A program made the position numbers and the translations under genes. Shown here one piece after another: positions 1,521-29,849 of a stretch of DNA of 33,513 bases (within the stretch, counting starts at the first letter, position 1; every line of letters begins with the position of its first letter). This DNA comes from an uncultured archaeon (GTDB taxonomy: Archaea > Nanobdellota > Nanobdellia > Pacearchaeales > GW2011-AR1), in NCBI GenBank assembly GCA_903831045.1, contig CAIKWG010000053.1:1-33513 (forward strand), in the 5' to 3' direction. The notes below the pieces were generated by a model. It did not search any database, was not told the DNA's origin, and saw nothing but the letters and a program-made list of their open reading frames with translations.

Positions 1521-2227
1521 ACATAAAAATTAATCACGGAAGAATCATTGGAATTGAAAATCAAACCTTAAATCCAATTCTCCCAAATTCAGATTTATCA
1601 TACGTAGAAGATAAAGATTTATTCAAGGAAATTAGAAATTATATAAAATCAGAGCATCCAAAATTAGAAAATAAATTAACTTTTGCTGATAATGTTATGA
1701 AGAACTCAAACACCTATCTTGTAACAGCAGTTGATATGTTTTCTAAAAAGTATCATTCAGATTATAGAATTCCAACTCAAGCAGATTTAGAAACAGATTT
1801 GAATAAGTTCAAAGGATTTTATGTGGATTCAGGTTTAGCATTAAGAAATTTAACTGGAGCGAATAAAGAACAAGCAGAATATTTATTTGATCAACTAAAA
1901 TCAAGGGGAATTAAAATTGAAAATTTTCCACTTTGGTTAAATCTAAGAGGATTGGAATTAGATTCAAATTTGAATTTTAATTTAACAGATGAATCAATAT
2001 TCTCAACAGAACCCTCTCTAAATTGGGCAAGTGAGACTAAATATTCCAAAGTAAATTCAATTGGGTTACCTGAAGCAAAAGATGCAAGTGCACCAAGACA
2101 AATTTGGACTGCAGATAACGCTTTGTCGAGGTGCTATCTGGACTGGGGCTCGTATCTGGGCTCTAACAATTCAGGTCTTGCGTATTCGGACGACGATGGC
2201 AGGGTGGTCCTAGCGAAAACCTGTTAG
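1517..2227 (+). CDS. DGR target protein 2 with C-terminal C-type-lectin-like variable domain
   Basis: 236 aa; C-terminus RQIWTADNALSRCYLDWGSYLGSNNSGLAYSDDDGRVVLAKTC carries VR2. Confidence 0.92.
   Translation: MNIKINHGRIIGIENQTLNPILPNSDLSYVEDKDLFKEIRNYIKSEHPKLENKLTFADNVMKNSNTYLVTAVDMFSKKYHSDYRIPTQADLETDLNKFKGFYVDSGLALRNLTGANKEQAEYLFDQLKSRGIKIENFPLWLNLRGLELDSNLNFNLTDESIFSTEPSLNWASETKYSKVNSIGLPEAKDASAPRQIWTADNALSRCYLDWGSYLGSNNSGLAYSDDDGRVVLAKTC
2123..2207 (+). repeat. DGR variable repeat VR2
   Basis: 85-nt match to TR; 15 mismatches, all at TR adenines. Confidence 0.95.
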
Positions 2228-2261
2228 GGTTTGAGCTCACGAAGACGCGTAAGCGTCTGAG
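2217..2261 (+). other. Post-VR2 tandem hairpins
   Basis: AAACCT-GTTA-GGGTTT (2217-2232; one T.G wobble) and AGACGC-GTAA-GCGTCT (2243-2258) with CTC/GAG flanks. Confidence 0.75.
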
Positions 2262-2311
2262 TTGTTGAAAAGAAGACAAAGATTTATTAATTCTTTTGAA
2301 TTTTTATGATT

Positions 2312-2329
2312 CCTAGCCATCAGGCTAGG
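2312..2329 (+). other. Hairpin between target 2 and TR (terminator or DGR RNA leader structure)
   Basis: Perfect 7-bp stem CCTAGCC-ATCA-GGCTAGG. Confidence 0.5.
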
Positions 2330-2476
2330 CCACAAGTCAGTTTATTTGCACATTGTTTAAATTTATTTTAAGTCAGTAAAATTCAGCTTTAACAATAAGT
2401 AGTTATGAGATGAAGACGAAAATTGAAAAAGCAGTGGCAGAATAAAAATCTGATAATTGGTAAATTGGCTAATCCA

Positions 2477-2561
2477 TTGTCGAGATGCTATCTGAACAGG
2501 AACTCGAATCTGAACTCTAACAATTCAGATCTTGCGAATTCGAACGACAATGGCAGAATGA
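2477..2561 (+). repeat. DGR template repeat (TR)
   Basis: Adenine-specific divergence from both VRs; rich in AAC/AAT codons in the shared frame (LSRCYLNRNSNLNSNNSDLANSNDNGRM). Confidence 0.95.
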
Positions 2562-2581
2562 CTTACCTTTTGGCTAGCAAA

Positions 2582-3568
2582 ATGAAATCCTTCACAAATC
2601 TTTATGGGGAAATTATCTCTCTAAAGAATCTAATTCTTGCTTATAAAAAAGCAAGAAAAGGAAAAACAAAAAGAAATTATGTTATTAACTTTGAAGAAAA
2701 CCTTGCTTATAATTTAAAAATTTTGCATGAAGAACTAAAAAACGAAATTTATCTTCCAAAACCTTTAGAGAGCTTTATCATTAGAGATCCAAAAACTCGT
2801 TTAATCTCTAAATCTGATTTTAGAGATAGAATTGTTCATCATGCTCTATGCAATGTAATTGAACCAATTTTTGATAAAACTTTTATTTATGACTCTTGTG
2901 CAAATAGAAAAGGAAAAGGTACTTCTTTTGCAATAGAGAGATTTGAAAATTTTCAAAGAAAAGTCACCTGCAATTTTTCAAAACAAGTTTTTTGTTTGAA
3001 AGCAGATATAAAACATTATTTTCAAAGTGTAGATAGAAAAATACTCTTAAATCTAATAAAAAGAAAAATAAAGTGTGGTAAAACAAATAGATTAATAGAA
3101 TTGATATTAAATAATTTTCAAGGACAAAAAGGAATGCCCTTGGGGAACTTAACTTCCCAGTTTTTTGCTAATCTTTATCTTAATGAATTAGACTATTTTG
3201 TAAAATTCTCTCTTAAAGCAGAATATTACATCCGTTATGTTGATGATTTTGTGATTTTACATAAATCTAAGGTTCAATTACAAATTTGGAAAGAAGAAAT
3301 AAGCAATTTTCTAAGGATTTATCTCAAAGTCGAGTTACATCCAGATAAATCAAAGATAATCTCCCTGTCAATGGGAGTTGATTTTGTAGGATTTAGGCAT
3401 TTTTATTATTTTAGACTTTTAAGAGCTAGAAATGTTAGGACTTTTAGAAGCAAATTATCTCTATTTCAAAAAGGAGAAATAAGTTCAGAAAAATTCAAAG
3501 AAATTTTGCAAGGCTTTTTAGCTTACTCTGAACTGGCAAATAGCTATAATTTGGTTAAATACTTCTAG
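2582..3568 (+). CDS. DGR reverse transcriptase
   Basis: Motifs IRYVDDFVIL and QKGMPLGNLTSQ (DGR RT variant of motif 4). The open frame extends back to 2423 through the TR; the ATG at 2582 is the likely start of the RT domain. Confidence 0.93.
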   Translation: MKSFTNLYGEIISLKNLILAYKKARKGKTKRNYVINFEENLAYNLKILHEELKNEIYLPKPLESFIIRDPKTRLISKSDFRDRIVHHALCNVIEPIFDKTFIYDSCANRKGKGTSFAIERFENFQRKVTCNFSKQVFCLKADIKHYFQSVDRKILLNLIKRKIKCGKTNRLIELILNNFQGQKGMPLGNLTSQFFANLYLNELDYFVKFSLKAEYYIRYVDDFVILHKSKVQLQIWKEEISNFLRIYLKVELHPDKSKIISLSMGVDFVGFRHFYYFRLLRARNVRTFRSKLSLFQKGEISSEKFKEILQGFLAYSELANSYNLVKYF

Positions 3569-29158: not shown

Positions 29159-29332
29159 TTATTTTCTTTTCTTCTTTTTTCCCGACTTAGCAAGCTTCAT
29201 TAATTTTTTAACTTTAGAAGATTTAGGTTTTTTGCTTGGGCCTCTACAACAGTTCGCACATGAATCCTTTTTCTTCTTTGCAACAACCTTTCTCTTTACA
29301 ACTTTCTTTTTGATCACTTTTTTCTTTGCCAT
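29159..29332 (-). CDS. Small Lys-rich basic protein with CxxCC
   Basis: MAKKKVIKKKVVKRKVVAKKKKDSCANCCRGPSKKPKSSKVKKLMKLAKSGKKKKRK. Confidence 0.6.
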   Translation of the reverse strand: MAKKKVIKKKVVKRKVVAKKKKDSCANCCRGPSKKPKSSKVKKLMKLAKSGKKKKRK

Positions 29333-29433
29333 TTTATCTTTTTTATGATTAGGACTCGGTGGGAAAGTGCCATAAACATCCATTGGAAATCAATCTTAAC
29401 CTACCAACATGCTTTAAAGGTTATCTTCCCCGC

Positions 29434-29579
29434 GCCACGTTGCGAAGCTTAAAAGGCACAGGTTTCGTAAGGAGAGTTATAGTCCTTTCTCCTCATTAAT
29501 AGCTGAATGCCAAACAGAGGCTTTCGTGGTCACATCCTTTCCAGGACAACCGATGGAATACTATAGTCAGGGTAGTATT
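29434..29579. ncRNA. Candidate structured RNA of unknown identity
   Basis: GC-enriched island in AT-rich noncoding DNA. Nested helices: GCCACG/CGTGGT (29434-39/29525-30), GAAGC/GCTTT (29444-48/29520-24), GGCA/TGCC (29455-58/29508-11), AGGAGA/TCTCCT (29470-75/29488-93); adjacent hairpin AATACTA/TAGTATT (29557-63/29573-79). Confidence 0.5.
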
Positions 29580-29849
29580 TATATCATTCCTTTAAAAAAT
29601 AAACTTTTTATTACAGAAATGTTTACTTTTTAATCAAATCTGGAATTTTATCTTGTTTTTTTATTAAATGCCGTCGTAGAATCTAAAACTCTTAAATGGA
29701 ATAAACTTTATTCTCAATTATTGCATTAATAATCTCTCGTCCAATTGGTTTATTTTGAAAAATAAAATAAAATATTCTGAAAATAAAATTAAAAATAATA
29801 TTAAAAACCTTTAAATATGGATTTTTGTTATTTACTTTAGAGGTTGAAG

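Follow-up and report, generated by a model that had tools for sequence, protein, structure and literature searches.

The window analysed here is a stretch of 33,513 nucleotides (contig CAIKWG010000053.1, positions 1 to 33,513, assembly GCA_903831045.1) from an uncultured archaeon of the Pacearchaeales (GW2011-AR1). On its minus strand lies a structured RNA of approximately 225 nucleotides, starting at 29571 and ending at 29342, followed by an open reading frame (ORF) for a 57-amino-acid Lys-rich protein. The RNA almost certainly constitutes a new structured class that matches none of the known families and, judging from their conserved genomic arrangement, the encoded protein is its likely partner. 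A first-pass annotation of this DNA had flagged as an orphan structured RNA the block 29434-29579, which sits between a small minus-strand ORF (listed as 29159-29383) and an AT-rich stretch. This extent was wrong: the block represents the 5′ two-thirds of the RNA; P9 is missing from it, and P1, P2 and the pseudoknot are each left without their 3′ strand. Both the pseudoknot and the downstream partner gene had been overlooked. The features of the locus are as follows.

29342-29571, minus strand: structured RNA (match to covariance model R1, 209 bits)
29563-29569, minus strand: 5′ strand of P1, UGACUAU; 3′ partner at approximately 29346-29350; weak in the window, strong in most homologs
29549-29553, minus strand: 5′ strand of P2, UCGGU; pairs with ACCGA at 29356-29360 and closes the four-way junction
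29534-29547, minus strand: P3 hairpin, GUCCU-GGAA-AGGAU, with a GNRA tetraloop (GAAA or GGAA in most homologs)
29432-29533, minus strand: long arm P4-P8, apical hairpin UGAGGAGA/UCUCCUUA (covariation and model)
29481-29487, minus strand: apical loop AAGGACU, strand 1 of the pseudoknot (loop/tail covariation)
29361-29431, minus strand: second arm P9-P12, with conserved apical loop AGGUUAAGAUUGAU (covariation and model)
29350-29356, minus strand: 3′ tail AGUCCUA, strand 2 of the pseudoknot, overlapping the end of P2 (loop/tail covariation)
29159-29332, minus strand: ORF of the 57-amino-acid Lys-rich protein, MAKKKVIKKK...RGPSKKPKSSKVKKLMKLAKSGKKKKRK, listed with a spurious upstream start (to 29383)
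29576-29583, minus strand: TATA-like box TATAAATA (from the sequence)
29591-29596, minus strand: second TATA-like box, TTTAAA, at the position most frequent in the family

Fold, pseudoknot and strand

The fold comprises 13 helices. One of them is a long-range pseudoknot between the apical loop of the long arm and the 3′ tail. The linkers of the four-way junction (P2/P3/P4/P9) are of one nucleotide at most. Across 85 sequences, 64 of the 68 nested pairs changed on both sides, rising to 68 of 74 when the pseudoknot was included. Pair cells stayed paired in 93.6% of cases versus 79.2% in shuffles and approximately 40% in slid controls, while doubly changed cells numbered 833 versus 193 in shuffles, none of 500 shuffles being equally good. 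Compensatory covariation in excess of both the shuffled and the slid controls is decisive for a structured RNA under selection and establishes the fold. The covariance check across relatives proposed in the first-pass annotation thus gave strong compensatory change, and with covariation across more than 80 homologs the flagged block proved to be a real structured RNA. The helices named there also exist, GCCACG/CGTGGT being P4, AGGAGA/TCTCCT being P8 and a 7-bp hairpin being P3 with its GNRA loop. Single-sequence folding was no better than chance on either strand (z-scores of −0.7 to −1.2). Folding energy therefore provided no basis for the case, and a test of energy alone would have discarded a real structured RNA.

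The pseudoknot forms between the loop at the tip of the long arm, in most cases CUGGACU, and the tail directly 3′ of P2, AGUCCAG. The two are complementary in all 79 scorable sequences, through 21 different loop/tail pairings (e.g. AAGGGCU/AGCCCUU, CCUGGCU/AGCCAGG and CCAGACU/AGUCUGG, with AAGGACU/AGUCCUA in the window), which demonstrates the pseudoknot. Large junction and pseudoknot riboswitches, such as the cobalamin class, combine a four-way junction with long-range loop pairing in the 5′ untranslated region (UTR). The RNA described here resembles them in both respects but has no Rfam match and essentially a single gene family downstream. A metabolite or ion riboswitch for the small protein, in which the pseudoknot would compete with a pairing of the 3′ tail to a 5′ GGAC strand, would suit the size, junction and pseudoknot, all of riboswitch type, and the occurrence of tandem copies. 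In 59 of 76 sequences a pairing of the 5′ strand with those tail nucleotides is indeed feasible, and it is retained in four variant sequences. However, neither the window nor most of the sequences whose tail varies have kept the alternative helix, for which reason we make no claim of a universal two-state switch (5′ GGAC versus loop GGAC for one tail). The Shine-Dalgarno sequence is, moreover, often outside the fold, and known riboswitches usually control several families of metabolic or transport genes rather than one small basic protein, making this explanation rather improbable.

Where the flanks of the BLAST homologs (see below) could be read, the left one held the start of a short Lys-rich ORF in reverse orientation and the right one a TATA-like box in minus-strand orientation; hence the RNA was assigned to the minus strand, upstream of the ORF. 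As a covariance-model alignment is itself fitted to the model, plain MAFFT alignments of 42 sequences were also run. These gave 59 pairs, 43 of them compensated, at −52.2 kcal/mol on the minus strand versus 37 pairs, 25 of them compensated, at −22.6 kcal/mol on the plus strand, whose fold has A-C mismatches at positions where the minus strand has G-U. The first-pass annotation had leaned weakly towards the plus strand, a preference overturned by these energies, while leaving the minus strand open on account of an ATATAAATA box, the alternative that stood. A plus-strand noncoding RNA was rejected on the strand comparison, the GU:AC counts, the position of the TATA-like box and the downstream ORF.

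Known families and distribution among archaea

Rfam (4227 families) gave no match at the gathering score in the flagged block and nothing credible at E-values up to 10, and two relatives likewise had no credible match at permissive thresholds; the Rfam scan suggested at the outset therefore supplied no name. Archaeal RNase P RNA (RF00373) was rejected, the block being unmatched and the source genome having its own copy (C1:7471-7760), as was archaeal signal recognition particle (SRP) RNA (RF01857), to which the block is also unmatched and which four carriers of the new RNA (G032, G033, G035 and G039) possess elsewhere. Transfer RNA and transfer-messenger RNA were rejected for want of an ARAGORN match. 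The initial view of the element as an orphan, distinct from SRP, RNase P, 5S and transfer RNA, is borne out by these Rfam results, the separate RNase P RNA and the covariation. Since none of the memberships that could be tested was found, the RNA is filed under no known family. In the source genome itself (83% complete), the archaeal SRP RNA model finds no match and most relatives score under the Rfam cut-off, indicating that the Rfam SRP model fits this lineage poorly. No description of the RNA or the protein was found in the titles and abstract openings of the papers that the literature searches retrieved, nor at the terms looked up in PMC2864571 and PMC7247131. The RNA family and its protein family are new as a category; they may yet turn out to act by an established mechanism.

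Among 55 related genomes, BLAST returned six further homologs (73-79% identity), lying in noncoding DNA and drawn from several families of the order, whose protein-coding neighbours differ apart from the short Lys-rich ORF. Covariance models were then built, the first from seven sequences and the second from 85. In the large genome searches, no more than the few top candidates of each genome were scored. There the seven-sequence model identified 35 carriers among 200 genomes at the level of the order and 58 among 378 for the class, and the 85-sequence model 55 among 371 for the phylum and 26 among 196 from the phylum of a Micrarchaeota-labelled genome. Carriers make up 15-17% of the genomes sampled at the three ranks of the window's own lineage. 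Within the genus of the window, where all candidates were scored, only the source genome carries it (1 of 11). When 84,980 prokaryote species were scanned with an exact pattern, 51 loci emerged, every one archaeal and all fitting the covariance model, from Pacearchaeota, Woesearchaeota, Nanoarchaeota, Micrarchaeota, Diapherotrites and four records labelled simply archaeon. From the sequences searched, the RNA class has so far been found only in the DPANN archaea, a group of tiny symbionts, the exact pattern being strict enough that rarer variants outside the listed groups could escape.

Such a patchy distribution, together with tandem copies and the presence of several copies in some genomes, could point to a mobile or selfish RNA-plus-protein unit, e.g. 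a type III toxin-antitoxin-like pair. The peptide, however, is a Lys-rich chain of 36-101 amino acids with no RNase fold or family match, unlike the endoribonuclease toxin of type III systems, and no conserved transposase or terminal repeats were noticed. One DNA pattern had no match in viral contigs, on which ground a phage origin was rejected. We regard a mobile unit as very improbable.

The partner protein and the role of the RNA

Of the 107 non-identical copies, 92 are followed by a protein of 36-101 amino acids (median 52) that begins within 110 nucleotides of the end of the RNA, the median distance being 9 nucleotides. It is rich in Lys and Arg, with a strongly conserved core, [GS]RxPSxKxKxSKVxKLIKLAK, and a predicted helix spanning SSKVKKLMKLA, and matches no Pfam or NCBIfam family. 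Protein-profile matches occur in 21 genomes of the order, 20 of which contain the RNA; the exception (L205, G070:C28) is a relic in which the protein core is readable while the RNA is gone and the start codon lost. In the ten congeneric genomes both RNA and protein are absent. RNA and protein are gained and lost together, and in the loci from the Micrarchaeota search, mostly outside the model-building set, the order RNA then protein recurs in 9 of 11 readable cases. Copies devoid of the ORF but followed by a U-tract would be explained by an independent trans-acting noncoding RNA beside which the protein gene is incidental. The linkage across DPANN lineages is nevertheless far above incidental synteny and the other neighbours are unconserved, making this the least probable of the explanations considered.

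Some divergent copies have other neighbours. Four of them (L116, L121, L198 and L199) precede another small basic protein containing Cys (MVCPKL.../MVCVKL...), possibly a second subfamily. Two others (L118 and L120) have a 27-amino-acid peptide, MKCGRGKRKTGTKDKIRAARRKRRKNK, approximately 50 nucleotides downstream, and L119 has a U-tract and, approximately 50 nucleotides further on, a gene resembling by eye a potassium channel with a TrkA-N-like domain.

A TATA-like box is found 38-60 nucleotides upstream of P2 in 80 of 103 homolog loci versus 24 in shuffles. As this promoter precedes the RNA and the ORF starts so closely behind it, the two probably share a promoter and form one transcript. Where the start codon lies within 9 nucleotides of the end of the RNA, a Shine-Dalgarno sequence is present in 2 of 45 loci, versus 33 of 47 where it lies farther away and the Shine-Dalgarno sequence is outside the fold (p 1e-11). 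The fold would thus occupy the ribosome landing site in half of the loci, the other half being able to initiate outside it.

We propose that the RNA is the 5′ part of a transcript that also encodes the tiny basic protein, and that its compact body, built from the four-way junction and the loop-to-tail pseudoknot, locks the 3′ end beside the start codon. The protein made from this transcript would bind the RNA to give a ribonucleoprotein as the main product, and the same binding would feed back on translation of the protein, a feedback proposed because the start codon abuts the pseudoknot and P1 without a Shine-Dalgarno sequence in about half of the loci. To this combination of a ribonucleoprotein from one transcript with translational feedback we assign an even chance. 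More tentatively, it might represent a DPANN-specific, non-ribosomal ribonucleoprotein machine produced from a single self-sufficient transcript, with assembly competing with translation at the start codon.

The fold is retained in copies without the typical ORF (L087, L108, L073, the first copy in L098 and the divergent L118-L120), with 65-71 of 71-74 pairs intact, and a T-run comes after it (longest run on average 6.6 versus 2.9). Head-to-tail RNA pairs precede a single ORF in L084 (G276:C9) and L085 (G302:C48), and genome G276 holds four RNA copies in total. Though small in number, the ORF-less and tandem copies suggest that the RNA does more than control the ORF. They therefore speak against a purely cis-acting autoregulatory leader, whereby the protein, possibly a ribosomal or chromatin protein peculiar to the lineage, would block its own translation through the 5′ UTR and the RNA would have no other role. 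Such a leader would account well for the same gene family lying behind nearly all copies and for start codons that, in roughly half the loci, adjoin the pseudoknot, but less readily for the Shine-Dalgarno sequence outside the fold in the other half, and a patchy distribution would be odd for a ribosomal protein. Imitation of 23S rRNA gained no support, RNA model R2 matching nothing in the 23S loci of four archaeal genomes, although small local mimicry would escape. Overall we consider the purely cis-acting leader somewhat unlikely. Against the ribonucleoprotein proposal it must be said that exclusive linkage to one gene family fits an autoregulatory leader equally well, that Lys-rich tails bind nucleic acids non-specifically and that two of the ORF-less copies are the sole copy found in their incomplete genomes.

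Comparison with known systems and a second feature of the window

OLE RNA is encoded beside the gene of a partner protein. Together with the Oap proteins of Bacillota, it is described as a structured RNA with highly conserved nucleotides that works as a ribonucleoprotein (PMC9723947). The RNA described here is likewise structured with an adjacent protein gene, its ribonucleoprotein being predicted from linkage. OLE RNA, in contrast, is approximately 600 nucleotides long, belongs to Gram-positive bacteria and has other proteins, as opposed to approximately 225 nucleotides, DPANN archaea and a Lys-rich mini-protein, and in Rfam there is no sequence or structure match between the two. Archaeal ribosomal-protein leaders are described for eL15, S15 and L4, with poly-U after some S15 leaders (PMC7247131). 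These are also archaeal 5′ leaders before the gene of a small basic protein, whereas in our case the gene is not a named ribosomal protein, the fold is much larger and pseudoknotted, ORF-less copies exist and 23S rRNA is not matched. With strong covariation, a compensated pseudoknot, a matching protein family and several DPANN lineages, structure, binding and function can be tested together.

The window also contains a diversity-generating retroelement (2116-3568). An 87-nucleotide repeat occurs at 2116-2202, the 3′ end of an ORF (1517-2227), and at 2470-2556, and most differences between the copies fall where the second has an A. Next to the repeat are a reverse transcriptase (2423-3568) and a match to RT-16 RNA (2312-2477).
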